Shown piece after piece: positions 9,909 to 31,658 of a DNA stretch of 46,804 nucleotides (the stretch's first letter is position 1; each line of letters begins with the position of its first letter). Source of the DNA: a virus; IMG/VR virus record IMGVR_UViG_3300013093_000081, positions 1 through 46,804 of that record; one strand, given 5' to 3'. A program made the position numbers and the translations under genes. Under the pieces are notes generated by a model. That model did not search any database. It was not told the DNA's origin and worked only from the letters and a program-made list of their open reading frames with translations.

Positions 9909-9920
9909 TTACGTTGATCC

Positions 9921-11495: not shown

Positions 11496-11505
11496 TGTTG
11501 TTTCC

Positions 11506-12501: not shown

Positions 12502-12502
12502 T

Positions 12503-14317
12503 TTAGTACTTTATTATATAGTTAGCGTATTGTAGTGGTTCGGTACTGGCCGCTTTGTATAAAGGGGTAGCACGACTTAGATCAGGTACATTAAAATTAG
12601 GAATAACCCCTCCATAAATGAAACTACCAAATCCTTCATATTGTAATGCTTTAGCAAGGTCAGGAAATGCCGCAATAGGATAGCTCAATCCATCGCATAA
12701 CAACCAACCCGCCGGAGGTATATTACTCCCGTGCATTATTATCATTCCTGCATTATAAAACCCATCAGTTAACTGATTTAAACTAATTTTCTGGGGGCCT
12801 TTATAAGTAGCACTAGTTGATGTATCAACTACCAATAAAGTTAATGTAGCTGTTGTATATGTCGCAGTTACCTGATCTGTAATAGCATTAGCAGATAATG
12901 TTGTATTAAATGTTGCTGTTGATCCATTACCGTAAAATATAAAATTAGTAGATGTCACTTGCCCTTTTAATACAAAATTACTGCCAAACGCTAATCCAGT
13001 AGCAGGTCCGTTAAAAGTACCAAAAACTTGTGTACTAGTTGTACCAATTGAATTGGCATAGATCCTATTAAATGTTGCTGTAGAAGACCCTATATCATAT
13101 ATATTAGTTACGGATGGTAAAATTCCAGCTCCAGATTTTGGATTACCGTTGCCATCCAACCAATTTACGTATATTTGTCCATCCACAGTAATATCGTCAC
13201 CAAATACAGATACCCCGCCAACATTTAAAGTACCTGATATCGAGGCATTACTTTCCATTGAGGTAGTACCGCCTACACTAAGTCCGAGTGATATACTAGC
13301 TGGTCCATTGACTACTAAACTGGGATTGTTAACTGACGTAGTTGTATTGATTGTAACAACTCCGTCAGCAACTACTACAGTACTGTTTGGTAAACTACTT
13401 GTAGCATTGGAAGTTTTAAGAACAATGTTTCCTCCAGGTGTATTGTTTAAAATGATCGCGTCATTGATCAATTTATAAAATTGAATATAATTATTATTAC
13501 TACTACCAACTATATTAACAACTACACCATCTCGTCCCTGGGAACCAGATTGATTATTAGCATTAGGTGTTGAAAATAACATTCTACCGGTTATTATCTG
13601 CCCATTTATCGAAGTATCATTTTTTCTTAAAAAACTACCAGCACTAAACAAAGCATTATTAACAATTAGATTGGCTGCCGTGACTGATATTCCGTTAAAA
13701 AATGCTCCAGACGCAACATTAACACCTGGATAAATCGCAGTAAATCCAGATAGTATAGGATTCGGAATAAACGATTCCCCTGCTAATACAGAAATTCTGT
13801 TACCACCTACATATGTAGATGTTATTTGATGGTTGGTACCGGTTGTATCTGTTATTGTTTCAACAAACGGACCATTTAATTCTCCCATGTTGGCATTTCC
13901 GACAGGAATCCAAGTTCCGGCACTGTAAATATTAAGTTGGCTTAATACTGTATTAACCCAAATATCACCAGATTTTAATGCCGTTGTTAAAGAGGGATCA
14001 GTGGGCTGTTGATATATTCCATTGGCGCTTGCCCAATTTGTTGCTCCGTACGTTCCGTCCATTACTCTTAATACTTTATTGGCAGGATTGCTTGTATCAT
14101 ACCATAATTGCCCTTCAATTGGGTTAGACGGAGGGATAGGACTTGAGAAGTTTTCTAGTAGACTCAGAAAGTTTTGATCAATTGCCTGTCCAAAATTTGG
14201 ATACCCTTTACCCACTAGAGTTAAACTTGTATCCACTGTGTTAACTCCCGGTGGCATATCAGGCACCGTTACTGCTGTAATTTTACTAGGATCAGAGTAA
14301 TTAAGTGTATATGCCAT
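12503..14317 (-). CDS. Tail fibre-like protein, array member 1, with collar-like C-terminus
   Basis: A 604-residue putative fibre, the first-transcribed of the four. Residues 30-75 carry the shared module (SLTLVGKG, FGQAIDQNFLSLLENF, GQLWYDT), followed by a GDIWVNTVLSQLNIY unit. The long middle is beta-rich and contains the fibre phrase NIYDIGSSTATFNRIYA. The end has a collar-like domain (GSNIPPAGWLLCDG, then IPNFNVPDLSRATPLY), shorter than that of the 9921 gene and lacking its HSH. TGGAA stands about 10 bases before the ATG. Confidence 0.8.
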   Translation of the reverse strand: MAYTLNYSDPSKITAVTVPDMPPGVNTVDTSLTLVGKGYPNFGQAIDQNFLSLLENFSSPIPPSNPIEGQLWYDTSNPANKVLRVMDGTYGATNWASANGIYQQPTDPSLTTALKSGDIWVNTVLSQLNIYSAGTWIPVGNANMGELNGPFVETITDTTGTNHQITSTYVGGNRISVLAGESFIPNPILSGFTAIYPGVNVASGAFFNGISVTAANLIVNNALFSAGSFLRKNDTSINGQIITGRMLFSTPNANNQSGSQGRDGVVVNIVGSSNNNYIQFYKLINDAIILNNTPGGNIVLKTSNATSSLPNSTVVVADGVVTINTTTSVNNPSLVVNGPASISLGLSVGGTTSMESNASISGTLNVGGVSVFGDDITVDGQIYVNWLDGNGNPKSGAGILPSVTNIYDIGSSTATFNRIYANSIGTTSTQVFGTFNGPATGLAFGSNFVLKGQVTSTNFIFYGNGSTATFNTTLSANAITDQVTATYTTATLTLLVVDTSTSATYKGPQKISLNQLTDGFYNAGMIIMHGSNIPPAGWLLCDGLSYPIAAFPDLAKALQYEGFGSFIYGGVIPNFNVPDLSRATPLYKAASTEPLQYANYIIKY

Positions 14318-14319
14318 AA

Positions 14320-14949
14320 TTAATTTCCAGTTCCGCTAAGGCTTTGAACTCTAACTGTATAATCAATTTGGATCATTCTGTTTAACGACTTTTGCACAGG
14401 ATGAAAAATTACATGAGTTAGTAACATTCCCATTCCCGGACCATCGGGACTGTAACTTAATAGCCCTAATTCGTCAAACACATAAGTGCCATTAGAGTTA
14501 GTAGCGTTGTCAAATGCACTTTGTCCATTTGGTTCGCCAAAATCTAATAAACAACTAACTAAAATATCACTATACGCAGTTCCTGTAATGTGTCGAACTT
14601 GCATAAAATTATTTGTAGGGTTTAAGTCTGTAGTTTGTTGTGCGTCAACTGTTTTATAGTATGTTTGATTATACAAACTAGCACTAGTACCAACAGTATT
14701 TGGAGTTAGATATGTTATAATACCAGTATCATCTACTCGTGTTCCGCCATTTCCAAATGCCATTTCATAAATTGTACCATAGCCTTGATTGCTCAAACTC
14801 TGTGCCATGGCAAGACTAAAGTTTTCATAATGAATTGCGTTCTTTTTATCAATAAAAACTTCTTTAGTATTGGGGTCAAAAATTTTGATATGACCTTGAA
14901 CTTTCATAGTTCCTTGTTCATTTGGACGAGTTTGTGTGGTATTTGTCAT
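14320..14949 (-). CDS. Conserved T4-like virion-associated protein
   Basis: About 209 residues from the ATG at 14949; an ATG at 14967 and a TTG at 14982 are alternative starts. The late-promoter box at 14972-14979 would exclude the TTG, and the ATG at 14967 lies almost at the expected transcription start. Recognisable stretches are KKNAIHYENFSLAMA, IYEMAFGNGGTRVD, DILVSCLLDFGEPNGQ and THVIFHPVQKSLNR. I recall this as a conserved structural gene of T4-like cyanophages. Its place between the peptidase and the fibre array suggests a fibre-attachment or baseplate role, which is inference. Confidence 0.7.
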   Translation of the reverse strand: MTNTTQTRPNEQGTMKVQGHIKIFDPNTKEVFIDKKNAIHYENFSLAMAQSLSNQGYGTIYEMAFGNGGTRVDDTGIITYLTPNTVGTSASLYNQTYYKTVDAQQTTDLNPTNNFMQVRHITGTAYSDILVSCLLDFGEPNGQSAFDNATNSNGTYVFDELGLLSYSPDGPGMGMLLTHVIFHPVQKSLNRMIQIDYTVRVQSLSGTGN

Positions 14950-14971
14950 AGTAGAAATCTGTTTCATATAA

Positions 14972-14979
14972 TATTTATC
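14972..14979 (-). promoter_or_regulatory. Late promoter box GATAAATA
   Basis: Read on the - strand, these bases give GATAAATA, one base from the T4 late box. It would start transcription near 14966 and drive the 14.9 kb structural gene and the four fibre genes. Confidence 0.5.
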
Positions 14980-14998
14980 CAAGTATTTTTCTTAGTAT

Positions 14999-16285
14999 TT
15001 AAATTCGTATTTTAGGTCTTGGAAATGCCTGGCCTACACTGGGTCGAATTCCAGTCAGCCTCGGCCATTCTATTCCTTGATTTGGCCGGAGGCCGATGAT
15101 AACGTTTAATAAAGAATACCCATCTGGTGCTCCTACACCGGTTACTGGATCCCACCCAACTCGAGCGGCATATCCTTGCGGTAGATAAGTAGCATTGGTC
15201 CCCGTAGTTATGTCGTAAAAGGCTTCCAAATTAGCATAAAATAATGTATTATACTCTGTTGATGAAAATGCTTTACCAGTTAGTGCTTTAAATCTAGCCA
15301 ACATGCCTGCCATCACCGGAGTGGCTGCACTAGTTCCGCCGGCAGCAACTAAATTTCCGTTATAATAAAATACATAAGAATTAGCCATTGGGCCAGAAAT
15401 ATCCGGAACACCCCTCATAGTTACTGGAGTTAATGTTCCATAGATGTTGGTTGAACTATTATATGTTTGATAGCTCAATCCAGTTTGCCAGCTAGGTGCC
15501 GAAAATAACGTGCTAAATCCGCCACCACTCCCGACTCCAAACGAAAATCTGGAATCATTCTGTTCTGTGGTTTCTGTCAATCTTGTGTTTGTGCCCGTGT
15601 TTATAATAAGATGCGTTCCTCCAACTCCGATTATATAAGGGCTTGACGTTGGATAATTAACTGATTCAACTCCCGAATTGTCTGATCCAAAATCGCCAGA
15701 ACTATTCACAAAGGCAATCTTATTAGAATTAGCCAGTTGAAGTTGAGTCGATAAAAAATCTCCGCTAGCTTCACCAAAAGTCCAACTCATCGTAATCACA
15801 TCGCATCCGTCAGAAATTGCTCTAGCAATAGTACTTTGAATATCACTAATAAAATTTGTAGAGGAGTTTATATAAATGTTAATTGTGGCTTCGGGAATCA
15901 ATGTAGCCACACACGCAATATCTAATGCATTTTCGGCATCAGCATTAGTATTAACACCAAATTGACCGGTTGCGCCATTTAATAATATTTGGTTTATGAT
16001 TGGAGCTGTAAAGGATCCAGGAATTAATCCAGATGTTTGATATGAAGAAAATGTTAAATTAATATCGCTCTGTTTAAACCCTCCATCAAAACTAATAATT
16101 CCAACTTTCATGCCCGCTCCAGAATGAAATGGCATATTATACGCTGTGGCAACTTGCGGAGCCGTAAGATTGACATAGTTGCCCGAATGATAATACCCGG
16201 TATTATTAATTGTCACTAATGCCGATTCGTCAAGAGATATTATATTTAATTTCGAAAGACGAGCAACTACTTGTGTTTTATCCAT
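14999..16285 (-). CDS. Sedolisin-type serine-carboxyl peptidase (S53 family)
   Basis: A 428-residue S53 peptidase. The catalytic residues fit the family: E118 and D122 in DAENALDIAC, the oxyanion aspartate D198 in NSSGDFGSDN, and the nucleophile S319 in GGTSAATP. The calcium site is visible as YDITTGTN (357-364) and GWDPVTGVGAP (378-388). The domain opens at LTAPQVATAYN (40-50), so only about 38 residues precede it: the long propeptide of secreted sedolisins is missing and no signal peptide is seen. A basic, proline-containing tail follows (about 397-428). The start overlaps the stop of the collagen-like fibre gene (TAATG), so the two are probably made together as virion parts. It may cut host surface proteins or process a fibre. 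Confidence 0.85.
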   Translation of the reverse strand: MDKTQVVARLSKLNIISLDESALVTINNTGYYHSGNYVNLTAPQVATAYNMPFHSGAGMKVGIISFDGGFKQSDINLTFSSYQTSGLIPGSFTAPIINQILLNGATGQFGVNTNADAENALDIACVATLIPEATINIYINSSTNFISDIQSTIARAISDGCDVITMSWTFGEASGDFLSTQLQLANSNKIAFVNSSGDFGSDNSGVESVNYPTSSPYIIGVGGTHLIINTGTNTRLTETTEQNDSRFSFGVGSGGGFSTLFSAPSWQTGLSYQTYNSSTNIYGTLTPVTMRGVPDISGPMANSYVFYYNGNLVAAGGTSAATPVMAGMLARFKALTGKAFSSTEYNTLFYANLEAFYDITTGTNATYLPQGYAARVGWDPVTGVGAPDGYSLLNVIIGLRPNQGIEWPRLTGIRPSVGQAFPRPKIRI

Positions 16286-19035
16286 TACTGCTCTAACTCC
16301 AATAGTGTTAATGTTACACCGACTGCTGTAGAACTTACTGAGTTATTTGTAACTGCTATATATACCGTATTGGTTGTTACAACATCGTTGTTAAACCCAA
16401 CCACTCCTGGAGTAATTAATTGAGTTAATGAACCGGAAGTAGTAACAACATCTGCAATAACTCCCGAACCTACTGTGGGATCAGTACTTTGATTTCTGGA
16501 ACTGTCAACAGATAAACTTGTGGCATCTGTATAAATTCTAACCCAGGCAGGTTGTGTTGTTATAACTTTTGATAATACATAAGTTTTATATCCTGCTACG
16601 GTAATAGTTGCGGTATTACCAGATGATATAACTGCGGTAGATGTTGTAAACGCTAGTCTAGATGTGAGCCCGATTCCTGCTGAACCGGCATACCCTATGG
16701 ATCCAGAATAACCAAGCGACCCAGTATATCCAATACTACCAGCACTACCTTGTGATCCGGTATAGCCTCCAGGACCGCCAGCACTACCAGTAAATCCCAC
16801 AGCAGAATAAGCACCAGCTGATCCGGTATATCCGCGTGGACCACTTACGGAACTGGCTGATCCTGTGTAACCACCAGGATCACCCTTACTACCAGCAAAT
16901 CCAATAATACCCTGCGATCCAACGTACCCTACACTACCCCAGTAGCCCTGTGATCCGGTATAGCCTACACTACCCCAGTAGCCCTGTGATCCGGCATAAC
17001 CTTGACTTCCTGTAAATCCAGATCCGCCAATACTACCGTCATATCCTTGTATTCCAAATGATCCTGTAAATCCAATAGATCCTGTAAATCCAGTAGATCC
17101 TGTAAATCCGGTATTGCCTTGACTACCATCATAACCTTGTGATCCGGTATAGCCCACACTTCCCCAATATCCCGCACTACCTTGACTACCGTCATAGCCT
17201 TGCGATCCGACATATCCAGTGCTGCCGGTATAACCAATATCACCAACACTGCCGGTGTATCCAATACTACCAGTATAACCAAAATCACCAACACTACCGG
17301 TATATCCACCAGGATCACCAACACTGCCAGTATACCCAATAGCACTAGCGGCACCAATACTACCAGTATAACCTACTGATCCAGTAAATCCTTTACTACC
17401 AGCAAATCCATTAGGTCCCGTAGGACCTGAAACAGTACTAGCACTACCGGCGTATCCTTTGCTTCCACTATATCCTAGACTACCGGTATATCCCAATGGT
17501 CCAGAAACTTGACTCGCTGAACCAGTATACCCAGCACTACCGGTATAACCAATGCTTCCGCTATATCCCAAACTACCGGTATATCCCAATGGTCCAGAAA
17601 CTTGACTCGCCGAACCAGTGTAACCAGTTGGACCAATACTTCCGCTATATCCCAAACTACCACTATATCCCAATGGTCCAGAAACTTGACTCGCTGAACC
17701 AGCGTAACCAGTTGGACCAATACTTCCGCTATATCCCAAACTACCACTATATCCCAATGGGCCAGTTGGTCCTAGAGTACCAATACTACCTGTGTATCCC
17801 CCTGGATCACCTTTACTACCAGTATAACCTGTTGATCCCAATGGTCCAGAAACTTGACTTGCTGAACCTGTATACCCAATGCTTCCGCTATATCCCAGAC
17901 TACCACTATATCCTAATGGTCCTGTAGCACCAACACTGCCTGTATAACCGCCAGGTGGTCCTTGAGGGCCGGTTGGGCCTGGAATATCACTAACACTTCC
18001 GGTATATCCGCGAGCACCAGTAATTCCTACACTGCCGCTGTAGCCTCGAGGGCCAGATGGTCCAACCACTGTACTTGCCGAACCCGTATATCCACCAGGA
18101 GGGCCTTGCGGACCAGAAACTTGACTTGCCGAGCCTGTATATCCAATATTACCAACACTGCCTGTGTACCCAGTTGCTGTACTTGCTGATCCTGTGTATC
18201 CGATGGCACCGGTACTTCCTGTAAATCCAGGTGCGCCGGCACTACCAGTATATCCGCCCGGCATACCAGGTGCGCCGGCACTACCAGTATATCCGCCCGG
18301 ATCACCTTTACTACCTGTATAACCAATACCAACATTTGAAATATTAATAACACCATTCATACTTGGCATATTATTAGTTTGATATACTAACCGATCCGGG
18401 GCATTCATTGGAACGCTAAATGTTAATAGCCCAACTGTAACTCCATTATTTGTAATTCCAGAAGTATATAACGCAGAATCATTATCTGTATATTGAGTCG
18501 CTATATAAAATCCATGACTTGGACTGTTTACTGTAATATAATAGGTAAACCCACGAGCCAGATTAATACTATTACTATTAAGACCGTTAATTAAAAACGT
18601 GCCTAATCCGCTATCAGTTACTGTAAGATAAAGTCCTGCTAATGCGCCAGCACTACCAGTATATCCTTTACTACCTGTAAATCCAAAACTACCATTGTAT
18701 CCAATTATTCCTGTACTACCAGTATATCCTGTAGAACCAGAGTTCCCAGAGCTACCAGTATACCCTGTTCCACCAACGCTACCAGCATAGCCTGTACTGC
18801 CAACGTATCCGATAGCACCCTGACTACCTGTAAATCCAGATGTTCCCTGTGGGCCAACACTGCCAGAAAATCCAACACTTGCGCTGCCTGCGTATCCTAT
18901 ACTACCAGTATACCCAACGAACCCGCTAGGTAAATTGGTAAAATTATATCTTTTGGTAATTTGATTATCAACTACTACAAAATATGTCTCGTTTGTAGCA
19001 GTTGTTAGTAACGGTAATGTGGTGATTTGTGGCAT
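16285..19035 (-). CDS. Collagen-like tail fibre protein
   Basis: A 916-residue fibre. A 40-residue N-terminal anchor is followed by Gly-X-Y-type repeats dominated by GYTGS/GYSGS units with interspersed GPQGPPG and GDPGG stretches, running to about residue 787. A non-repetitive domain of about 100 residues (roughly 130-230) interrupts the repeats. The C-terminal 125 residues form a globular beta-rich domain ending in TLTLLELEQ, a likely tip. Collagen-like triplets in phage fibres form trimeric rods. AAGGA lies before the ATG; the gene is 2 bases from the giant gene and overlaps the peptidase gene by one base. Confidence 0.85.
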   Translation of the reverse strand: MPQITTLPLLTTATNETYFVVVDNQITKRYNFTNLPSGFVGYTGSIGYAGSASVGFSGSVGPQGTSGFTGSQGAIGYVGSTGYAGSVGGTGYTGSSGNSGSTGYTGSTGIIGYNGSFGFTGSKGYTGSAGALAGLYLTVTDSGLGTFLINGLNSNSINLARGFTYYITVNSPSHGFYIATQYTDNDSALYTSGITNNGVTVGLLTFSVPMNAPDRLVYQTNNMPSMNGVINISNVGIGYTGSKGDPGGYTGSAGAPGMPGGYTGSAGAPGFTGSTGAIGYTGSASTATGYTGSVGNIGYTGSASQVSGPQGPPGGYTGSASTVVGPSGPRGYSGSVGITGARGYTGSVSDIPGPTGPQGPPGGYTGSVGATGPLGYSGSLGYSGSIGYTGSASQVSGPLGSTGYTGSKGDPGGYTGSIGTLGPTGPLGYSGSLGYSGSIGPTGYAGSASQVSGPLGYSGSLGYSGSIGPTGYTGSASQVSGPLGYTGSLGYSGSIGYTGSAGYTGSASQVSGPLGYTGSLGYSGSKGYAGSASTVSGPTGPNGFAGSKGFTGSVGYTGSIGAASAIGYTGSVGDPGGYTGSVGDFGYTGSIGYTGSVGDIGYTGSTGYVGSQGYDGSQGSAGYWGSVGYTGSQGYDGSQGNTGFTGSTGFTGSIGFTGSFGIQGYDGSIGGSGFTGSQGYAGSQGYWGSVGYTGSQGYWGSVGYVGSQGIIGFAGSKGDPGGYTGSASSVSGPRGYTGSAGAYSAVGFTGSAGGPGGYTGSQGSAGSIGYTGSLGYSGSIGYAGSAGIGLTSRLAFTTSTAVISSGNTATITVAGYKTYVLSKVITTQPAWVRIYTDATSLSVDSSRNQSTDPTVGSGVIADVVTTSGSLTQLITPGVVGFNNDVVTTNTVYIAVTNNSVSSTAVGVTLTLLELEQ
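16672..18915 (-). repeat. Collagen-like triplet-coding repeats
   Basis: DNA coding the GYTGS-type repeats, interrupted at about 18350-18642 by a unique domain. Some units are nearly identical at DNA level: the string CCCAATGGTCCAGAAACTTG begins at 17492, 17585 and 17669, giving periods of 93 and 84 bases, both multiples of three, so unit gain or loss would keep the frame. Confidence 0.85.
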
Positions 19036-19037
19036 TT

Positions 19038-22000
19038 TTATAATCCTTCAATTGGGTTATTATTTTGATCTGTTAGTACAAATCCAGTTTCGATTGTTAT
19101 ATCAGGATCCCCGCCGCTATAATAACTATTTGGCAGCATAGACGGTTTAGCTTGTATAAACTTAGCGGCTTCCGTTGTACTATCTAGTAACGAAATACCA
19201 TTGTTCCATAACGCAGTGTCTGAGAATTCTTTCTTAATAATAACCAATTTAATGTTATCCCCTACTCCTTGTAGTGTATTTAACGTAATTTGCTGAGTTG
19301 CTGTATTGATGCTAAACTCAGGTGGCAAATAGTTTAATCCCGTATAAGTATAACCATTTATAGAATCAGTACTTAGAGAATTGGTGTAAACCCATACTTG
19401 ATTTGTTGATGTAACAATATAAGCGGTGTTTAACAAAGTGGTTGACGGTAGCAATGACTGCGAAGAAGTAGATCCAAAAAGTTTAAATTCAGGACTATCA
19501 TAAGATATTGTAGTATCTTGATAAAATGTACCTACTTTATTCAATAAATATCCACCATAATAAACTTGGATTTGATCTACGGCAGGAATTGTTGTATCCA
19601 ATGATAGTGTAATTCCATCTCCGGTTAAAGTATTAGCGGTAGTTAAGATTGTATACGTAGCAGTTGTGCTTGTGGTATACAAAGTCTGTTGATAAATGTT
19701 TTCGCTAAATGGTATCGTTTGACTTGGACTTTGATCAATAACTTCTGTATAAATGTCTGAATATGTTTTAGGGCTAGTCCCTAATGTTCCCCTACGTAGT
19801 TGTCCTAGTGTATTATTAACCATTGTAAAAAATTCAATACGCTCGCCGGCAATTATCACAACACCCGGAATTTTCTTTGAAGGAATAGCAGGAGTTAATA
19901 CACTAGCATCATTAACATAAATTTTTGTATCGGTTACCGATAAAGGTTGTGTTAAGTATGTGGAATTGTGTGCCGATACTCTCTTAAAAGATGTTCTATT
20001 AAATATATCATTAAAAATTCTATAACCCAATACAGTAGACGATAACGTTTGATTAGCAATATAAGTTATTACAATTTCATCGCCAGGCACAATGAGATAT
20101 TTGTCACTAATCTGAATGGTAACACCGTCGCTCAAAATTTGATAGTCAACATTATTAACTAAAGGGGCTTCATTTAATGACAACCAAAGATAATTTGTGT
20201 TTAACGGCGGAGCAGAAATCTTAAACTGATTTGATGAGGTGCCCCTAAACCGTTCTGTTCTTAATAACATACCATCCTGATCTGTATATGTTATTATTCT
20301 AATAGTAGACCCAACAAGTGTTGGATTTGTTAGAATCAGTGTAGATCCTTCAATATTATAATCATACCCATCGCCCGGTTGATTAAATAGGTCGACTACC
20401 GCAACAACATCGCCATTTTTAACATCACCGGAAGTTATGGTCACTGTGTTGGTTGTACCATTAACTATATAGTCAAACCCACCTCGTAACTTAATTCCAT
20501 TCACAAATACTTCAACTGAATTGTTTCCGACAGCATATTCTGATTGCGGTCTTTGGCGACTATTATTGATTTTAAAGGTTAAATTAGATTCAATAACTGT
20601 ATAATAACTTATATACGGTGGATTCAATTGTCCCGAATTTATTTCAACTATTACATTACCCACTGCCGGTCCAATATTTCCGGGAGCAGGATTTAATGTG
20701 TAACTTGTTATAGAATTATCTGTAATCTTAATAAATTGATCTGTTACCTCGTTAAAATAATTATTAAATGAAGCAAAGAACCATACCTGAACTGTATTTG
20801 TACCAGGCGGTAAATTATATACTGTAACAGCCGCTCGATTATCAATTCCCAAAATTACTGGTCCCAATGTATATCCATACCCCGTAGCAGTAGATTGTAT
20901 CGAAACAGATACCCCATTAACTGTAACATATGCGCTATTAACTGATCCAATTTCAGAAATACATGATACTTGAGCACTTGATTCATCAGTTACTGATATT
21001 GATCCATACCCAACAACTCCGGCATCTTGACCGCTTCCGCCACCTACACCGATAATAGTATATCCAATTACATCAGTTCTTAGTGGGCAAACACTTAACT
21101 GATCTGTTCCCCAATTAATAGTAAATTGTCCAGGAGTTAAAGTAGTTGATGTGGTGTAGTTGTACACCGTTAAAATTCCATCGGTGATTGTAATACTAGC
21201 CGGGGTTGAAGGTAAAATTGGCAATGTAATGGTCGATGTGGTGAATGCAATCGCATCAAAATTTCCAGAAATTATAGTAGGTGCTCCGGTAGATGTTTTT
21301 GTATAAACACCGATACCAAGGCTGTCACTAGATCCACCTGCTACTAATTCTTCAGGAGCATAACTATTATCAGAATTTAAGAAACCATCCCCTACTCTAG
21401 CAATCTCTGAAGAACCCCCATCAATAATAATGTCGCTCGGATTAACCCCCAGTGCTCCTGTTAGAACAGCAAGATTTGTTCCAGTCCATGTTCCCCCGTC
21501 AATAGATGTATCAAGAATTGCAGAATTTGAATTCTCATTCCAAAATTCGATAACTGTTCCAACATTGATGCTTGAGGTCAATGTACTACTAAATGTTACT
21601 GTGTTTCCTACTATAGAAATTACAGTAACTTCATTATTATAAAATACATTAGATAATTCACTAACAACATTAGCATATTGACCGACGGTTATTCCTGAAA
21701 CATCATTTAACATTACAGAGTTACCACCAAGCAACGTAACGTTTGTTGAAGTGACTCTTGTATAGTATTCTACATCATTACCCCATGTAACTGTACCAAA
21801 CGGCACGTTGTTTTCATCCCACCCGGTGGTATAATTAAATGCCAATGTTTGAATTTGTGTGCGTGGGTATTCAACTCCTAACATTAGTTGTCCTAAATCC
21901 AAACCTGGCATACCAGATGTTGCTGTATAATAATTTAAAATTCTTTCTGAAGCAGATTGTATGTCACCACTCTTAACATAGGTGATTGATAACACTTGTT

Positions 22001-25000
22001 TAATTCCAGGAACAAAATTTAAAAATTTAATTTGGCAATACTTTTTGGTGTATCCATTATGTAATTTTGTAAAATATTCAATAGTGTAGTCCAACCATAA
22101 TACACGTAGACCATCTAATGTCATTGTAATTAATGATTTGTCTGACACTGCTAACCAATTTAGTATAAATGTGTTTGCGGATCCATTACAAATAAACTTA
22201 TCGGTAGTTGTTGTATTTCCTATTTGATTGCCAGTCGAAATCCTATCAAATTTTAAAGTAATATCAAATATTCTGTTTGTGTCAGCAGTATAAGTTTGCG
22301 TTGGGTCAAGTACTGTATATTGTTCTGTAAAATTTCTAATTTGTGTATGATACGGTTTTACTTCTTTAATATAATTTTCAAAATTTGTATTATTTGTTAC
22401 CAGGTAAGAAGATGGTTGTGCTAACGCACCCACTTCGTTGGTAACACTAATAAATGACGTTTTAAATACCCAGTCAAGTAACTTTTGTTCTGTAAGAGCA
22501 TACTTAACTGCTTTAAAGAAAAATAAATTCCAATTGACTTTTAATTCATTGATGAAAATATTATCTCTTAGAGCCTTCAAGATATAATTTAATTCTAAAT
22601 CAGGAGTCTGATCATATAATGTTTGATCATAAGCACTAACTTCATCATATCCTAAATTGCTAGTTGTGGTATTCCATATACTATCTGAAATTTGTATGGT
22701 TCCATTTTGAGAATATACAATATTGTACTGATTACTAAATGTTCCTGATCCGGAATCAGTTGCTTCTAAAATTATATAATTGCCTAATCCGTTATTTTTA
22801 ACCTTGACATAATCCCCGTTCTTTAATGTTAACGAATCAGTTTGATAAACATAATCTACTGTGATGGCATAATCCTTGTACTGATTATAATCACTACTAG
22901 ACCAATTAGCATAATTCCAATATAATGGTGTATTGTATGATTGAGTACGAATTCTAACCCAATTACTATTTTCTATATCACGAATAAACATTGCCCATTT
23001 ACCATAATATGTACTATCCGAAATTACTACAACAGTATAAGGACGAACTGCTAATAACGGAGCAGTTACATATCCCGACCCGGGGTTAGAAATTGTTGTG
23101 CTAATGACTCTCCCGTGTGAATCAATTTTGGTTGTAATTACCGCGCCGTTTCCTTCTCCGTTAATTGTTACTGTTGGTGGATTAATATACCCTCGACCAT
23201 GATTAACAATATGTGTTGAAATAATGCGGCCTTCGTAAACAGTACAGGATAATTCAGCAGTTGATAGTAATGTGGTGTCAATTATGTCAAGTTCGTTTGT
23301 ATCCTCGATCGTGTAATCATATAGATTTAATGCTACCGGAGGTATAGTTTCCTGAGCATTTAAATTATTAAAATTATAATTACCAGTAATAACATTGTTA
23401 ATTAATATTCCGTTAACAAATCCTATTAAATTTCGTAGAGCGGCTTTTCTATTTGCAAACATGGTTTGTCTTGGTCTAATCCCGATACCATATCGAATCC
23501 TTGCTGTTAATTTTGGATCAGGTACAGGATTTCCCAAACTATCGTGTCCTAATAAACTGTCAAACAGTTTTTTCTCAAGCAAAGGATTAGGTACATTTGT
23601 TTCGTTACCTTCTTGCAATAATAACCATTCTGTGTGTCTGGGAATAATATTATTAATATCATCAATAGTAATGTTTAAATTAATATTATTTTTTATAAGT
23701 TCTTTTCCTACGTTAGCGACTGATACAGAATGTGGTGAAATAATTGCAGCATATTGTAACCCGTAAGCAGTTGGATCTAATATAATCTGCCCTACATCGT
23801 AACAACTGATTCTTCTGTTTGGTACAGCCGGAACTATAACTTTATTTTTAACCCAGTAATAATAATTATAATTATTAAAAGTTTGTGTTACTGTATCATA
23901 TGTCTGTATATAAGAATAAGCACTATCATCAGGATTTAATGGTTGTCCACTAACACCCTGTATTAATCCAGCTGAAGTATCTGCTATAGCACTCCATTCG
24001 CTAGGTAATAAATTACTGCCCACCCATTCGTACACATCAATTCTTGATCCCGGGAATAATTGTCCCCATGTATTCTTTCTAAAGGTGTCATCTCCTTGTT
24101 CATACCATTGATATTTAACAGTACTTAAATCCCACCATAATTCACCAATATGACTATCAGTCCAATTAGTTGCAGTATTAATTGAGTTAATGTCTGTTCC
24201 GATAGAATAAATTGCAGGATCTGATGCTGTCTTATATGTTAATTCCTGATCTGCCATTCCGGCAATACGTCCTTTTAATGGATCAATTACATCAAGATAG
24301 TTTACAATTTCTTCCGTCGAAGTATTAATTAATCTTACTCGTTGAATTAAACTAGTATCAACTAAATCATTCTGACTCCTTAGTAATTTCCACCCATTAA
24401 CTGTAGCGTCTATTTTATTAAACAAGTATACTGCGCTGTCAATACTTGTATTATCTATTGCTGGTGCGCCAACTAGTACTGTTGTCGAATCAATAACCAC
24501 ACTCTTTCCGTAATCAGTTCCATTTGCTGTAGATACCGGCGATAGCTCTTCGGCAAATACAAAACGATTAGATAATCTATTATAGATATAAACTGTTCCA
24601 GAATTATTAATTACATCGTAGAATTTAGTAGAATTTGCGTCAAACGTTGTATTAGAATCCAATAGAGCCGTAACATCAAACGTTGTTGCTCCATGCACTC
24701 CAGATCCCAGGCTTGAAATAACTAACGAATTATTTGTGTCATTGATATCAATATCAGTACCAAAATGTATTCCAATAACTCCCGACGGGTTGGTTAAACT
24801 TTGATCTAATATATATTGTCCGTTTACATTTTTATATATATTGACCGCACCATAACTTTGATCAAAGTTTTCACAGTATGGAATACCAATTAACAAATAA
24901 CTACTATCGGGCGATACCAAAACTTTTTGGCCAAATTTTGATCCCGATGGATAATTCGAAGTTATTGTTTGCCAAGGAGTTGTAAAATTTGTATTAGTAT

Positions 25001-28000
25001 AAATGTTAACAAAGCCAGGTGTATTGGTATTGCCTAAAGCACTAATGGCAATTACAGTGCCATCGTCTGATCCACTAATACTATAACCCCATTGGCTACC
25101 AACAGTTACTGGAGTTGTAACAGTATGTTTGAGGGTAGCAGAAACATTATTAGTGCCAATTACTAAATCATAAACGTACACTTCTCCTGTAGAAGTATTA
25201 ACTGTTGCTGGAGCAGTAATTACTAATGTTTTATTAGATGATGTAGTATTTCTTTGTACATATATTCCTGATCCAAAAAACGAATAACTGCTAGGTTGTG
25301 GATTATTAATAATTAATTCTTGAACTTCTTCAAGAAGTACAGAATTTATACTACTAATTTTTACCAATCCAGAATTGTTAATACCATTAACTGTTTGTGC
25401 TTTTGGAGCACCGGCAAAAATTAATCCATATGTAGATGTACTAAAGGCAGTGTCATCATAGACTACAAATTGTCCAAATCCCGTATCGTTGTTTAACGAG
25501 TTTGCGTTTCCTTGTAATTCATTTAAATAATAGTATAATTTTCTAGTTAATCCATCAGTGGGAGTTGTTAGGTATAGCGTAACACGACCATAGTTTCCGC
25601 TTTGTTCAAATCCAGGTGAACCAACAACTACAACATTTGATCCGTTACGTTTACTGATACTCCACCCAAGTTGTTGATCAGATATACCACCAACACTGAG
25701 TGCTTGCGATATTGAATAATTACTAACCTTTTCATAGACACCCCATTGACCGTTGCCAGTATTGTCGATCCACGATTTAGTACCAGCGGGCAAATTTAAT
25801 AACACATGGTCAGCAGGTAAATTATCAAATGTATTAAATCTAACACTATCAAATCTAAATAATAATCCCACTTTTGTAGAGGAATTACTATTAATATATG
25901 TTGATGTTGATGCGATTAAAAACGAATTCAAACTTGGTACTTCGGTTACAACATATACACCGTTTACTGCTGAATCATATTCAGTAATAGAAATTAATTC
26001 TCCAACTGTTATTCCGTGATAGTTATTGGTGATAATAGTAAGATCAACTCCGGGAATATTAATAAAAGCATCAGAAATTGTTGCCGGAGATAAGGTGTAT
26101 CTTAAAACATCCCAATCTCCGTTTATTGTATTGCCTATCCAGATTGTATCTCCATTGTTGAACACATTGGTTGTACTAGACGCGGCATTAATTAAAGTAT
26201 TTTGATTTAATGTGGTATAATTTACATCATCAATTCGTACATAACCAGCTGTTGATAATACAAATTTATTATCTACATATGTTCCAGAATTTACCGCAAA
26301 AGTATTAGAACTTATATAGTTTGATGGTGTTATTTGCCAATTAGATGCTGTACTATAAACCTTTAAATCATATGCTGCAATAGGAGGAGTTGTTTCTGTG
26401 AAAACTATCACTTGAGGATTATCAACAAATGTACCTTCAATTAACGGAATCTCTAATTCTTGATACGTTGTATATGCGCCATACTGTCCAATTCTAAATG
26501 CCCATTCTTCGTTATATGTAAAATTACCTTGTAAATTTTGTATACTAGACTTAGCCAGTTTAGCAATAGCGTTGTAAGTACCCTTTTCTCTAATATATCC
26601 TTGATAGAATTTATACTGAGCTATAGGATCAATAATAATATTTGTAAGATACGAGCGAGGGGTATACCCTGTTAGATGTTGTGCGGCTTTTTGTTGTCCG
26701 GCATCAAAATTATCTATATCTAAACTATAAAAATCTTGGAATTGGCTAATTTTATAATCAAAGTTTGGTAATAATCCAGGGATAGGTTTAGATGGTAAAA
26801 TGTGCCATAGAGTAAAATCAAAGGTTTGTGCTCCATCAATATTATTAATAGCCGAGTAATACCCCCCAGAATAATATACCGCATCTCCAGCATTATAATC
26901 GGTATACTGTTTCCAGTTACTTATTTTTGCAGTGTCATACACAAAGCCAGGACTAAAATAATCGCCATTCCATCCAGCGGTTCTAAACCCACTTAATTTC
27001 ATTCTTGCCTGATAAAACCCAGTTTCAACACTATATACTACATTATCAAAAATTGTTTTATTATTAAACACCATACCGTGTTCTTTTTGTACATTTCTAA
27101 ATACAGCAAAATATATTCCGTCATTAGAATTTATTGTAGAAATAGTACAAACACCATTTTGTCTTGTGATGTTTATTCTATTTTTTGATATTAGCGTACC
27201 ATTAGCAGACATCACATTATAAGAATAAAATGGATCAAAAATATTATCAACTACAGAATTTGTAGAAGTAAATTGTACTCGTTCAGCAAACGGACTTAAA
27301 GCGATAACACTGTTATTGGCCCAATTTTGTGTGGACCAATATAAAAACTCCTTGGCTGTAAAGTTCCAATCTATGTTGGTTCCGAAATTAGAATTATATA
27401 AATCAAATACAAATCCTTGTTTGGTTAACCACGCACCATATCCAATAATAATATCATATATCTCTTGTACTGTATTAAATGCTGTTCCGTACGGAACTTG
27501 TGTAATTGTGTCGCTGAAACTTGCAGCAATTTGAACGGTTACACCGCCAGTTATTGGCAATGATTGAATCTGTTGATATAGAGCAGGATTGAATACACTT
27601 TCCGCTTGATGTGCTATTTTTACAACATAAAAATTACTACCATATTGTACATATTGTCCCTTTTGATAAAATTTATTAACAGGGGAAGAATTAGCAGTTG
27701 TAGTTTGATCCGAAGTTAACCCTGTTTGACTATAATTAGATGTGTTAGACCAGGTAACAAACGAAGTAGTTACACCACCAATATTTAAGGTAGGAGTATA
27801 TCCATTTCTTATAGGTTGGTATATATTAAAATATGGATTTGTTTGGTCATATCCTTTAATTACAAAGCTGCCATTTACTTTCTGGATTATAATTCCGGAG
27901 ATACTGTTATAACTAATGGGGTCGCTTACATTTAATATTAATGTATAATCCTGCGGAGATAATAATGCCCCAGGACTGGTAGCAGACGGATCTATAGCAT

Positions 28001-31000
28001 TGATAGTTACTTGTAAGGTGCCTTGACTTACAAATCCGCCTACCTTGTGAAACAAATTATAAGACAAATAATCTATATCAGACTGCAATTCTAGATTATA
28101 ATTTTGTGTGCGCTGACGTCCAGTTTCACTAACATATACACTGTACCCAGCTGTTAATCTGTTATTAACTCCTTGTACAACAATATTTTGAATATTTAAA
28201 AATGAATAATTTAAATTTTCTCCATATGTCCATTGTCCAGCAATATTTTTTTGAACACGACTTGTGTCATACATCAAGGCCGAATATGTTGCCGGACAGG
28301 TTAATGCTAATAATTTCTGAACTGCAAATGGATAATAGCTACTACGTCTCCATGCGGTTTCTGCTGGTCCTTGATCGCCAAACCTCCAATTTTGTCTTTC
28401 GCTAGATGGTGTATAATTAGTTAATAGATTAACCGTAGGGTTCAATAAATTTCCATATTCGTCTACCGGTAAAATTGTCGATAATCCAGGTCGAGCATAC
28501 AACACATTAATTGTATTTGTATAGGCATTACGGCCAATTTCAATGTCTTGCCATAATAAAGTGTTGCCAGATGTGTATGGTGACGGGCCATACACAGATG
28601 TCCACCAAGTTGGAATTTCGCTAAATCCTAACATTTCCCATGGGCAAGTATGCGGGCGATCTGTGCCGTAGAAATATTTGTATATACTTCTCCAATATCC
28701 GTTTATTGGGTCTTTTATTAATGAATTATATGATCCAGCAAAGTTCCAGGTAAATGAGTTATCTTGATTAAAAGTTGTATTTTCTGTATAATCAATTCCA
28801 TATGCTCCGGCCCAGTTAATAAACTCTTTATTTAAAATAGAATTAATTTCGTTCAATGAATATTTGGTATTGGCAAATGCTCCGGGAATTACTGTATTAA
28901 TATCAAACAATTCAGGTCTATATTGCGTTTTAATATTGTTGTAGATTCTTTTTTCAAATTCTAAAATAATAGCATCTCGATAATCATTGTATGCCACAGT
29001 AATACTACCGTCGTGTCCTTGTATAACATTTACAGGTTGGTTGGCATATGTACTGTCTAAATATATTTTAGGTGTAAATTTTGGATACAAACCCAATTTA
29101 GTAGGTGTTGGTGGCACAAAGCTACCTGAGGTATCTGGGTATTGGTGTACAGTTAAAACATCTTTAATGTTTAATGGAATTAAAATTGTTATACTAGAAT
29201 CGGCAACATTAAATTTATAATCAATACCTAGCAACAATTGTTCGCTATTTAAATAAACTAAAATTGCTGTTAAACTTAGTGTATCAGGATTAAAATCTAA
29301 ACCAAGTGGGTATTTTACATTTCTTGAATCCGTCACTGTCCAGGTTCTTGAAGTAAAATCTGTCCCATATGGAACCATGTCTGACAGATAATACTCACTT
29401 AAAATATTCATTGAAATATTCATTGCTGTTAATGCCTGATCAACAGCGGTAACCGGATCTAGTTGATTTCCTAATATTAAAATTTGTCTTAAAAAACCCA
29501 ATTTATATTGATTATATTGATCAGCTGCCTTTGTTAACGCATTAATGACACTATGTTCTTTCTTGCCGATAAACATTTGAGCAAACGGTATAGGATCGAC
29601 ATTAGAAATTAATCTACGTCCATATTGTTCAATATTATCTATATCCCGTAAATTACTATCACCGGGAAATGATCCCAAAAAGGCAGGCGCATTTTCTGCC
29701 ATTGATTGACAATGATCTTGAAGATCTGTTAATGTTATTGATTTTAACAATCCATTTAACGGATTATTAGTAAGTCCCAGCGGTGATTCGTAGTATCCTG
29801 TATTATTAGATAACGGTAATTTTGAATACAATTTAAACAACACATTTGTTCCAGCCGCCAATGTATTATTAAAATTAACAAACACATTACCTGATATAGA
29901 CACTGTAGTAAAACTACTAGTTGTTAATTTAGTTGAATTAACAAATACATCTATCCCATCTGTTATACCAAACTCATCAATTGCGGTTATGGCAATCGTC
30001 GATGTTGTTTCAGTAGTAGATTGAAATTGTAATACCGGAATTTGATATCCTGTAGTTCGTGTCCACACATTGGCATAAACATCGCCCGTTGTTTCAAAAA
30101 ATTTACAATACGTATTTGAAGTAGGTATTATTATACTGTTTGATCCAAGAGTAATATTAATAGTGCTATCATTAAAATAATTAGTGAATAAGTAACTACC
30201 AACACTAACACTGTTTTGATAACTTACAGGAAATCCTAAAATGGGGTCAGTTGCCCCTGTTCCAAGTGTATAACCAAATATTTGATTGCCTTTAAAATCT
30301 GTAACGTAGTGAGCGGTATCACTGTAGCTATTTCCAACATCATCAAATAAATCAAATAACGGAGGTTCATTTAATTTTGTGTGCTGTTGAGAAAATATCC
30401 ACTCGCTACCATTATACCACCAGCTGGTTCCTTTATACATGTTGCCTTGCACAACGCTAACACTATCTCCAAATGTTGGTGTATGATCCTTTGCCGGAAT
30501 TAATGCTAATCGACGACGATCACCGATAATATTATAGGTAACTTCCCAAATTTTGCCTTTGACTATCGGATCCGGATCAGCATTAAAAATGACTCTATCG
30601 CCCTGCCCCAACAAGGCTGGATGTGATTGATCAAAGTCAACCATAAATCCCCACGACCCTTCAACAGTTTTAAACACATCGGTGGTGTTGTTATCTATCC
30701 AATCAACATTAGATATTGCATTTTTACCAAAATTATATAACTGCAAATTGGCTTTAAACTCAATTATCGGTTTCTGTGCTCGTTGAGTAGCAACAAACTC
30801 AGGTTGACTGCCATTTGCTATAGCACTAGCGGTTATCACATCTTGGTGTACCCACCGATTATATCTAGTCCAAGGATTTAAATCTTGACTGGCACGATTG
30901 ATTGTAACATACTCAGGGGTTATGGGTAATGTTTTATTCCCATCAAACGGGTAGGTATCAAATCCAGTCGCATCAAAACTTTCATCATAAATTGTAGAAA

Positions 31001-31658
31001 TTTTTCCGGCGGTTACCAAAGAATTATAATCAACAAGTACAATCGACGAGCCCACTCCTTCGACAAAAAAGTATTTGTCTATGTAATTAGAAGTTATATT
31101 TGTACCTGTGAATTGGACAAGCATTCCATTAGACAATGCCACCGTGGACGTACCAACTGTGGTTATAAATTTAGTATTACCTATAATGTCTGTGTCAACA
31201 TTTATACTATCATTATTAATTAAGATAGGGGCTGGACCAGTTACCAACCAATAATATTCTTGATAGTTGATAAGTTTGTCCCAGTCAATATGGGGATTAT
31301 ACGAATAAAAATCACTACGAAACAGTCTATCGAGATTATTTGTAATTCCACCGTTGACTGTAATTTGATTAATTAAATCATCGTAGGCTATAACTTCTTG
31401 TACTGTTAAATTAACGTCATTGATAACTAACGCCGGCTGTAGACTATATGCTGAACGGATTGGTGTAAAATCAGATATGTAATTATCAGTAGTCGATACA
31501 TAATTGGGAGTGGTTTTGTTTCCAATAAATCCATCAATACGCTCCAATTGAGCAGGCTGAATCAATTGATCAATAGTACTAGATAAGAATTTTGAATTTT
31601 TATCAGTTTGGAAATATGTAGGTAGTAAATTAACTGATTGGAAAGTCGATGTAGTCAT
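19038..31658 (-). CDS. Giant virion structural protein (4206 residues), gp7 position
   Basis: One unbroken 12.6 kb frame, placed directly after gp6 where T4 has the baseplate wedge gene 7. The N-terminus contains YDDLINQI, NNLDRLFRSDFYSYNPHIDWDK and NYQEYYWLVTGP, a pattern I associate with very large structural proteins of marine T4-like phages. About residues 1990-2420 hold repeats of the FG-GAP type (FGQKVLVSPD, YGKSVVIDSTTVLVGAP), suggesting a beta-propeller. Near 2820-2860 is a GxGYxxPPTVTI beta unit. The C-terminal part includes GVVIIAGERIEFF and LRRGTLGT. No peptidase or lysozyme motif was seen. TGGAAA precedes the ATG by about 6-8 bases. A role as extended baseplate or fibre-network protein is inferred from position, size and beta-rich composition. 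Confidence 0.8.
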   Translation of the reverse strand: MTTSTFQSVNLLPTYFQTDKNSKFLSSTIDQLIQPAQLERIDGFIGNKTTPNYVSTTDNYISDFTPIRSAYSLQPALVINDVNLTVQEVIAYDDLINQITVNGGITNNLDRLFRSDFYSYNPHIDWDKLINYQEYYWLVTGPAPILINNDSINVDTDIIGNTKFITTVGTSTVALSNGMLVQFTGTNITSNYIDKYFFVEGVGSSIVLVDYNSLVTAGKISTIYDESFDATGFDTYPFDGNKTLPITPEYVTINRASQDLNPWTRYNRWVHQDVITASAIANGSQPEFVATQRAQKPIIEFKANLQLYNFGKNAISNVDWIDNNTTDVFKTVEGSWGFMVDFDQSHPALLGQGDRVIFNADPDPIVKGKIWEVTYNIIGDRRRLALIPAKDHTPTFGDSVSVVQGNMYKGTSWWYNGSEWIFSQQHTKLNEPPLFDLFDDVGNSYSDTAHYVTDFKGNQIFGYTLGTGATDPILGFPVSYQNSVSVGSYLFTNYFNDSTINITLGSNSIIIPTSNTYCKFFETTGDVYANVWTRTTGYQIPVLQFQSTTETTSTIAITAIDEFGITDGIDVFVNSTKLTTSSFTTVSISGNVFVNFNNTLAAGTNVLFKLYSKLPLSNNTGYYESPLGLTNNPLNGLLKSITLTDLQDHCQSMAENAPAFLGSFPGDSNLRDIDNIEQYGRRLISNVDPIPFAQMFIGKKEHSVINALTKAADQYNQYKLGFLRQILILGNQLDPVTAVDQALTAMNISMNILSEYYLSDMVPYGTDFTSRTWTVTDSRNVKYPLGLDFNPDTLSLTAILVYLNSEQLLLGIDYKFNVADSSITILIPLNIKDVLTVHQYPDTSGSFVPPTPTKLGLYPKFTPKIYLDSTYANQPVNVIQGHDGSITVAYNDYRDAIILEFEKRIYNNIKTQYRPELFDINTVIPGAFANTKYSLNEINSILNKEFINWAGAYGIDYTENTTFNQDNSFTWNFAGSYNSLIKDPINGYWRSIYKYFYGTDRPHTCPWEMLGFSEIPTWWTSVYGPSPYTSGNTLLWQDIEIGRNAYTNTINVLYARPGLSTILPVDEYGNLLNPTVNLLTNYTPSSERQNWRFGDQGPAETAWRRSSYYPFAVQKLLALTCPATYSALMYDTSRVQKNIAGQWTYGENLNYSFLNIQNIVVQGVNNRLTAGYSVYVSETGRQRTQNYNLELQSDIDYLSYNLFHKVGGFVSQGTLQVTINAIDPSATSPGALLSPQDYTLILNVSDPISYNSISGIIIQKVNGSFVIKGYDQTNPYFNIYQPIRNGYTPTLNIGGVTTSFVTWSNTSNYSQTGLTSDQTTTANSSPVNKFYQKGQYVQYGSNFYVVKIAHQAESVFNPALYQQIQSLPITGGVTVQIAASFSDTITQVPYGTAFNTVQEIYDIIIGYGAWLTKQGFVFDLYNSNFGTNIDWNFTAKEFLYWSTQNWANNSVIALSPFAERVQFTSTNSVVDNIFDPFYSYNVMSANGTLISKNRINITRQNGVCTISTINSNDGIYFAVFRNVQKEHGMVFNNKTIFDNVVYSVETGFYQARMKLSGFRTAGWNGDYFSPGFVYDTAKISNWKQYTDYNAGDAVYYSGGYYSAINNIDGAQTFDFTLWHILPSKPIPGLLPNFDYKISQFQDFYSLDIDNFDAGQQKAAQHLTGYTPRSYLTNIIIDPIAQYKFYQGYIREKGTYNAIAKLAKSSIQNLQGNFTYNEEWAFRIGQYGAYTTYQELEIPLIEGTFVDNPQVIVFTETTPPIAAYDLKVYSTASNWQITPSNYISSNTFAVNSGTYVDNKFVLSTAGYVRIDDVNYTTLNQNTLINAASSTTNVFNNGDTIWIGNTINGDWDVLRYTLSPATISDAFINIPGVDLTIITNNYHGITVGELISITEYDSAVNGVYVVTEVPSLNSFLIASTSTYINSNSSTKVGLLFRFDSVRFNTFDNLPADHVLLNLPAGTKSWIDNTGNGQWGVYEKVSNYSISQALSVGGISDQQLGWSISKRNGSNVVVVGSPGFEQSGNYGRVTLYLTTPTDGLTRKLYYYLNELQGNANSLNNDTGFGQFVVYDDTAFSTSTYGLIFAGAPKAQTVNGINNSGLVKISSINSVLLEEVQELIINNPQPSSYSFFGSGIYVQRNTTSSNKTLVITAPATVNTSTGEVYVYDLVIGTNNVSATLKHTVTTPVTVGSQWGYSISGSDDGTVIAISALGNTNTPGFVNIYTNTNFTTPWQTITSNYPSGSKFGQKVLVSPDSSYLLIGIPYCENFDQSYGAVNIYKNVNGQYILDQSLTNPSGVIGIHFGTDIDINDTNNSLVISSLGSGVHGATTFDVTALLDSNTTFDANSTKFYDVINNSGTVYIYNRLSNRFVFAEELSPVSTANGTDYGKSVVIDSTTVLVGAPAIDNTSIDSAVYLFNKIDATVNGWKLLRSQNDLVDTSLIQRVRLINTSTEEIVNYLDVIDPLKGRIAGMADQELTYKTASDPAIYSIGTDINSINTATNWTDSHIGELWWDLSTVKYQWYEQGDDTFRKNTWGQLFPGSRIDVYEWVGSNLLPSEWSAIADTSAGLIQGVSGQPLNPDDSAYSYIQTYDTVTQTFNNYNYYYWVKNKVIVPAVPNRRISCYDVGQIILDPTAYGLQYAAIISPHSVSVANVGKELIKNNINLNITIDDINNIIPRHTEWLLLQEGNETNVPNPLLEKKLFDSLLGHDSLGNPVPDPKLTARIRYGIGIRPRQTMFANRKAALRNLIGFVNGILINNVITGNYNFNNLNAQETIPPVALNLYDYTIEDTNELDIIDTTLLSTAELSCTVYEGRIISTHIVNHGRGYINPPTVTINGEGNGAVITTKIDSHGRVISTTISNPGSGYVTAPLLAVRPYTVVVISDSTYYGKWAMFIRDIENSNWVRIRTQSYNTPLYWNYANWSSSDYNQYKDYAITVDYVYQTDSLTLKNGDYVKVKNNGLGNYIILEATDSGSGTFSNQYNIVYSQNGTIQISDSIWNTTTSNLGYDEVSAYDQTLYDQTPDLELNYILKALRDNIFINELKVNWNLFFFKAVKYALTEQKLLDWVFKTSFISVTNEVGALAQPSSYLVTNNTNFENYIKEVKPYHTQIRNFTEQYTVLDPTQTYTADTNRIFDITLKFDRISTGNQIGNTTTTDKFICNGSANTFILNWLAVSDKSLITMTLDGLRVLWLDYTIEYFTKLHNGYTKKYCQIKFLNFVPGIKQVLSITYVKSGDIQSASERILNYYTATSGMPGLDLGQLMLGVEYPRTQIQTLAFNYTTGWDENNVPFGTVTWGNDVEYYTRVTSTNVTLLGGNSVMLNDVSGITVGQYANVVSELSNVFYNNEVTVISIVGNTVTFSSTLTSSINVGTVIEFWNENSNSAILDTSIDGGTWTGTNLAVLTGALGVNPSDIIIDGGSSEIARVGDGFLNSDNSYAPEELVAGGSSDSLGIGVYTKTSTGAPTIISGNFDAIAFTTSTITLPILPSTPASITITDGILTVYNYTTSTTLTPGQFTINWGTDQLSVCPLRTDVIGYTIIGVGGGSGQDAGVVGYGSISVTDESSAQVSCISEIGSVNSAYVTVNGVSVSIQSTATGYGYTLGPVILGIDNRAAVTVYNLPPGTNTVQVWFFASFNNYFNEVTDQFIKITDNSITSYTLNPAPGNIGPAVGNVIVEINSGQLNPPYISYYTVIESNLTFKINNSRQRPQSEYAVGNNSVEVFVNGIKLRGGFDYIVNGTTNTVTITSGDVKNGDVVAVVDLFNQPGDGYDYNIEGSTLILTNPTLVGSTIRIITYTDQDGMLLRTERFRGTSSNQFKISAPPLNTNYLWLSLNEAPLVNNVDYQILSDGVTIQISDKYLIVPGDEIVITYIANQTLSSTVLGYRIFNDIFNRTSFKRVSAHNSTYLTQPLSVTDTKIYVNDASVLTPAIPSKKIPGVVIIAGERIEFFTMVNNTLGQLRRGTLGTSPKTYSDIYTEVIDQSPSQTIPFSENIYQQTLYTTSTTATYTILTTANTLTGDGITLSLDTTIPAVDQIQVYYGGYLLNKVGTFYQDTTISYDSPEFKLFGSTSSQSLLPSTTLLNTAYIVTSTNQVWVYTNSLSTDSINGYTYTGLNYLPPEFSINTATQQITLNTLQGVGDNIKLVIIKKEFSDTALWNNGISLLDSTTEAAKFIQAKPSMLPNSYYSGGDPDITIETGFVLTDQNNNPIEGL

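Follow-up and report, generated by a model that had tools for sequence, protein, structure and literature searches.

The window analyzed here is the whole of a 46.8-kb IMG/VR fragment (46,804 nucleotides), in which a gene for a sedolisin-like serine peptidase directly follows a gene for a collagen-like fibre (Table 1). The original prediction had placed this gene in a late virion block of T4-like setting, translationally coupled to the fibre gene. The block and the coupling are borne out: the surrounding genes encode gp7-like, gp25-like, and gp5-like baseplate proteins, a giant virion protein, and Collar-domain fibres, and the sedolisin gene overlaps the upstream collagen-like gene by 1 nucleotide (TAATG). 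The T4-like setting holds for the baseplate but not for the phage as a whole, which is a jumbo phage akin to Atu_ph07 and RaK2 rather than a classical T4-like one: its baseplate wedge and 220-aa proteins are closest to those of Agrobacterium phage Atu_ph07 and Sinorhizobium phage Phosso, and then to RaK2-like jumbo phages. From these relatives and the IMG/VR context, we read it as a freshwater phage. The virion block is flanked by genes for a QueE-like radical SAM protein (71-919), thymidylate synthase (7792-8676), a gp55-like late sigma factor (41488-42393), and an SbcCD-like pair (42586-45377). Four consecutive fibre genes within the window (8703-14317) have a common N-terminal region (phrog_14394/15511), two of them with Collar domains, which suggests that they are paralogous fibres.

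Table 1. Features of the sedolisin locus and its neighbours, in window coordinates.
Feature	Position	Strand	Evidence or conservation
S53 (sedolisin/kumamolisin-like) serine peptidase, 428 aa, two C-terminal tags	14999..16285	-	phmmer, AlphaFold2 model
Codon of Ser65, at the kumamolisin Glu32 position	16091..16093	-	Ser/Ala/Gly in 46/46 propeptide-less phage S53s
Codon of catalytic Glu118 (kumamolisin Glu78)	15932..15934	-	kept in 73/74 S53s sampled
Codon of catalytic Asp122 (kumamolisin Asp82)	15920..15922	-	kept in 74/74 S53s sampled
Codon of oxyanion Asp198 (kumamolisin Asp164)	15692..15694	-	kept in 74/74 S53s sampled
Codon of nucleophile Ser319 (kumamolisin Ser278)	15329..15331	-	kept in 73/74 S53s sampled
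First C-terminal tag, RPNQGIEWPR	15059..15088	-	motif scan
Second C-terminal tag, RPSVGQAFPR	15017..15046	-	motif scan
Collagen-like fibre gene, 916 aa: conserved N-terminal segment, GXY shaft, C-terminal cap	16285..19035	-	Pfam Collagen E 8.5e-58
Cap domain at fibre C-terminus (all-beta, proposed tag socket)	16285..16659	-	46-row alignment; AlphaFold2 pLDDT 88
N-terminal segment common to slot fibres with and without cap	18901..19035	-	profile scan
Conserved 220-aa protein, one slot border (phrog_11259)	14320..14982	-	48-51% identity to Atu_ph07 and Phosso homologues
Giant 4206-aa virion protein, other slot border	19038..31658	-	phrog_10938; same order in Atu_ph07 and Phosso
Baseplate wedge protein	31661..35107	-	phrog_10646 E 2.5e-292; relatives in jumbo phages
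Downstream fibre with phage Collar domain	12503..14317	-	Pfam PF07484

The product of the sedolisin gene is confirmed as an S53 peptidase unit, with a match far beyond chance: phmmer aligns residues 42-397 with kumamolisin (E = 2.4e-32), and the Pfam profile PF00082 (Peptidase_S8, in the same clan as S53) matches at E = 6e-15. An NCBIfam match to mycosin (E 0.002) lay far below the family cut-off and was set aside. An AlphaFold2 model with 45 phage sequences as input (mean pLDDT 85, pTM 0.84; residues 13-36 predicted with low confidence) has kumamolisin structures as its best PDB matches (Foldseek E 1.4e-29; TM up to 0.87 on target). The original prediction had named the family, the reading frame, the catalytic set, and a calcium site, and on each of these the analysis agrees with it: the frame runs on the minus strand from an ATG at 16285 to a stop at 14999, E118, D122, D198, and S319 stand where they had been placed and align with their kumamolisin counterparts, and Asp358 and Asp379 of the putative calcium site are present, aligned, and conserved in most S53 members. 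The likely geometry of the active site was judged from this alignment together with the fold match of the model. Of the 74 distinct S53 sequences sampled, 73 retain the full catalytic set. Selection among the closest relatives is purifying (dN/dS 0.06-0.18) but less stringent than for the 220-aa gene (0.01-0.03), a pattern to be expected of a surface enzyme that is functional yet changes quickly. The viral S53s compared here were recovered only by an alignment-based scan of viral contigs: a single-sequence scan of viral contigs with the window sedolisin gave no match, and in 50,697 phage records neither an S53 nor a tblastn match to the window sedolisin was found. The open-access literature returned nothing relevant on phage sedolisins, on kumamolisin in phages, or on tail-associated proteases.

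Known sedolisins are mainly secreted acid peptidases activated through a propeptide. The window sedolisin had been predicted to have neither propeptide nor signal peptide, and both absences hold: Pro-kuma_activ is missing from it and from every other ORF in the window, and no hydrophobic N-terminal segment is present (maximum 15-residue hydropathy 0.97). Pro-kuma_activ in trans was likewise not found in the records of three close relatives (156.6, 96.3, and 68.3 kb, all incomplete genomes). An N-terminal propeptide is usual in S53 and lies outside the definition of the family's peptidase unit. An N-terminal extension of propeptide length occurs in all 85 non-redundant bacterial S53s sampled and in 18 viral copies, and the 48 copies without one are all viral. 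In the tree, 46 propeptide-less phage S53s form one clade (support 100/99), which on these sequences would most simply reflect a single loss of the propeptide. The position of kumamolisin Glu32 (Table 1) is still Glu in 26 of 28 bacterial S53s and in 14 of 18 propeptide-bearing phage S53s. The Glu32-Trp129 network of kumamolisin, a feature of a subgroup and not one that defines the family, is absent from the window sedolisin, in which the Trp129 equivalent, Trp168, is retained; loss of Glu32 may have altered activity. The closest characterized enzymes, kumamolisin and kumamolisin-As (MEROPS S53), thus share with the window sedolisin the fold, the Glu-Asp-Ser set, the oxyanion Asp, the calcium-site Asp, and the Trp129 equivalent, whereas the window enzyme differs in lacking a propeptide, in having Ser for Glu32, in being phage-borne, and in its C-terminal tag repeats.

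These repeats, together with the C-terminus of the adjacent fibre, form a candidate holding-in-place element that the original prediction had overlooked. The tag, R-P-x-x-G-x-x-[YFW]-P-R, is carried by enzymes of unrelated catalytic class and is usually C-terminal; in the monomer AlphaFold2 model of the window sedolisin it is disordered (pLDDT <50 at 402-421 and 423-428). In its strict form (RP..G..[YFW]PR) it occurs in 36 of 68 viral S53s and 42 of 80 S8s, in 9 of 5812 other viral ORFs, all nine in fibre cassettes, and in none of 4446 bacterial ORFs; loosened patterns give scattered chance matches in bacterial ORFs, and a tblastn search with the bare tag peptide gave no match, an unsurprising outcome given the shortness of the peptide. 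The cap is a domain of about 115 residues common to the fibre genes that precede tagged enzymes. The best BFVD matches of its model are cyanophage fibre proteins; in the PDB it has no sequence match and no trustworthy fold match (best E 6e-4, TM 0.33-0.39).

Cap and tag occur together. Among non-redundant viral S53s, 35 have both, 3 have the cap without the strict tag (one truncated, two degenerate), none has the tag without the cap, and 25 have neither (Fisher p 1e-14, relatedness ignored). Genes directly after a cap are tagged in 34 of 37 cases for S53 and 52 of 67 for S8; the loose tag is missing from the other 15 S8 genes, some of which are truncated or degenerate. The association persists in phages with different neighbouring genes. 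Similarity between tags tracks similarity between caps once the catalytic domain is accounted for (partial r 0.40 for S53 and 0.24 for S8, both p 0.001), and tags show no correlation with the catalytic domain given the cap (S53 0.06, p 0.17; S8 -0.08, p 0.88). Tag also tracks cap given the 220-aa protein as a marker of phage lineage (r 0.21, p 0.002). These tests are correlative, and partial Mantel p-values can be optimistic. In the cap tree, which rests on few columns, the partners S8, propeptide-less S53, and propeptide-bearing S53 are interleaved, and the window's cap groups among S8-partnered caps, as expected if enzymes are swapped behind a common socket.

Several viral peptidases depart from this arrangement or elaborate on it. 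A second group of phage S53s (L126-L146, e.g., L129:5911-7284) has no cap gene and no RPxxG tag and ends instead in a different tail of about 50 aa with KTxxxTWxxVxxVxVKT repeats, which may be a second kind of docking element. In six further loci (L110, L112, L133, L164, L168, and L170), the S53 domain is N-terminal in very long untagged proteins (860-2024 aa), which in L112 and L168 are followed by a long collagen-like gene. One S8 after a cap gene is fused to a cupredoxin/plastocyanin-like domain (L213, 5169-7973), and the S8 of L221 has a C-terminus of the same kind. One S53 relative (L147:744-2039) has lost the catalytic Glu and Ser (ADDH) and retains tag and cap.

In the window, the fibre and sedolisin genes occupy the interval between the giant virion gene and the 220-aa gene. 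In Phosso these two border genes adjoin directly, and in Atu_ph07 only two small genes separate them. A scan of viral contigs for the 220-aa protein yielded 80 related loci, and the survey of gene order that the original prediction had proposed finds the position of this slot conserved in relatives, with variable content. The 85 distinct loci in which both borders are present were classified automatically, with a few imperfect calls (for example, the S8 of L064 was missed in the tally): 23 slots are empty, 21 hold a fibre without cap or enzyme, and about 33 hold a cap fibre with an S8, an S53, or an esterase; no slot without a cap has a tagged enzyme. The protein with a BD-FAE/feruloyl-esterase-like domain (L051:5788-7830) carries its tag mid-protein, at residue 320, and another slot (L045) holds a fibre with a pectate-lyase-like domain. 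In L068, the same slot, upstream cap gene, and C-terminal tag accompany a different S53, which belongs to another branch of the family and, unlike the window sedolisin, retains the propeptide and a Glu32-type residue. These contents suggest that the slot is a swappable plug-in site for enzymes that digest the host surface at the tip of a collagen-like fibre.

A comparable pairing is found in T4-like cyanophages. In S-CREM1, S-H38, and S-RSM4, a clan-SB protease (phrog_9158) directly follows a cap-domain gene, as in the window, and in S-CREM1 and S-H38 it carries the same tag. The cyanophage proteins differ in having the S8 catalytic triad and, in S-CREM1 and S-H38, in having an upstream T4 gp9/10-like baseplate protein whose C-terminus is the cap. 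Several cyanophages have an untagged gene directly after the cap; the tag is found instead on a small protein encoded one gene later, as if that protein were an adaptor. These small genes (L178:7674-7907, L179:7352-7594, L184:4245-4478, L180:7140-7481, and L238:7710-7976) encode 77-113 aa, and the gene between them and the cap gene encodes a protein of about 610-770 aa that ends in GIAFCARTT.

Cyanophage S-SCSM1 bears on whether such proteins are part of the virion. Three of its proteins are named as detected in virions by mass spectrometry (PMC9602691), and all three carry a 'virion protein' note in GenBank, so we take that note to mean detection by mass spectrometry. The same note stands on the S-SCSM1 cap protein, on a 368-aa fibre protein with a C-terminal tag (SSCSM1_235), and on a 1411-aa variant with an S8 domain whose gene is not adjacent to a cap gene (SSCSM1_228). 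Read in this way, the notes support by analogy a virion location, in that they would place in virions relatives of each part rather than the window S53 directly. For S-CREM1, the main text of the paper reporting 14 proteins detected by mass spectrometry is silent on the tagged peptidase, and we do not count that phage as proof.

Taken together, we think it likely that the window sedolisin is an active enzyme and a removable part of the virion, docked by its tag on the fibre cap and digesting a host surface protein; we infer tag-cap binding, virion location, activity, and substrate alike. The collagen-like fibre would be attached to the baseplate by its N-terminus and would present its C-terminal cap as a socket, on which the two tag copies of the sedolisin would dock, so that the enzyme would sit at the fibre tip and could clear or cleave a host surface protein on contact, during adsorption. 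The original prediction's virion tail enzyme acting on the host surface is thereby well supported, as an inference, by the conserved slot, the cap-tag module, the S8 relatives in cyanophage fibre cassettes, and the S8-domain protein with the virion note in S-SCSM1. Tail-held enzymes that can be exchanged are familiar in phages from tailspike depolymerases and branched spike assemblies, which are as a rule trimeric spikes connected through their N-terminal domains. The resemblance lies in exchangeable enzymes that act on the host surface; the window protein differs as a globular protease with a proposed docking through a short C-terminal peptide.

The original prediction had offered a protease that matures fibres as an alternative. 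Such an enzyme would trim the collagen-like fibre or other virion proteins at assembly, and both the 1-nucleotide coupling to the fibre gene and the missing propeptide, which would let it act directly after synthesis, are in keeping with this. A maturation role nonetheless fits poorly with a slot that is optional and exchangeable: in relatives it can be empty, hold a fibre alone, or hold an esterase, the N-terminal segment of the fibre also occurs in fibres unaccompanied by a protease, and S8 and S53 replace each other quickly, which is not what one sees in a dedicated maturation enzyme, so we regard this role as improbable. We would give about as little credence to a soluble enzyme, cytoplasmic or released at lysis, whose tag serves as a stability or targeting peptide. 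Release at lysis needs no signal peptide, and none is present, but the gene lies inside the baseplate and fibre block, the tag is tightly associated with the cap and varies with it, and the tag also appears on a tail fibre protein and on small fibre-cassette proteins of cyanophages.

Somewhat less improbable, though still unlikely, is a virion-borne sedolisin whose tag docks elsewhere, on the giant virion protein, the 220-aa protein, or the baseplate, with the correlation between cap and tag reflecting shared inheritance of the cassette. All genes of the slot travel together and the partial correlations are modest (0.2-0.4), as this would lead one to expect; against it, the association survives different neighbours and correction for the 220-aa lineage marker, and slots that lack the cap also lack tagged enzymes. 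The least probable reading, to which we assign very little weight, is a catalytically dead structural copy whose job is binding and not cleavage. Propeptide and Glu32 were lost together in the clade and one sampled relative lacks the Glu and Ser, yet the Glu, Asp, Asp, and Ser are kept in nearly all sequences sampled across a large divergence, and the dN/dS among the closest relatives also speaks against it.

Beyond the window, we lean, with less assurance than for the docked enzyme itself, towards cap and RPxxGxx[YFW]PR as a general plug and socket of freshwater jumbo phages and marine cyanophages, through which unrelated enzymes (S53, S8, and esterase) and small adaptors would be exchanged at the tip of a fibre or baseplate, with S53 plug-ins that include a phage-only branch folding and working without a propeptide. 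That branch raises the question of how such an enzyme folds and how it is kept safe. If true, the cap-tag pairing would allow proteins carried at phage fibre tips to be predicted by a simple rule, and laboratories could readily use it to mount enzymes of choice on a fibre. A further implication is that aquatic phages may reach their receptors through proteolysis of surface proteins as well as through depolymerization of sugars.
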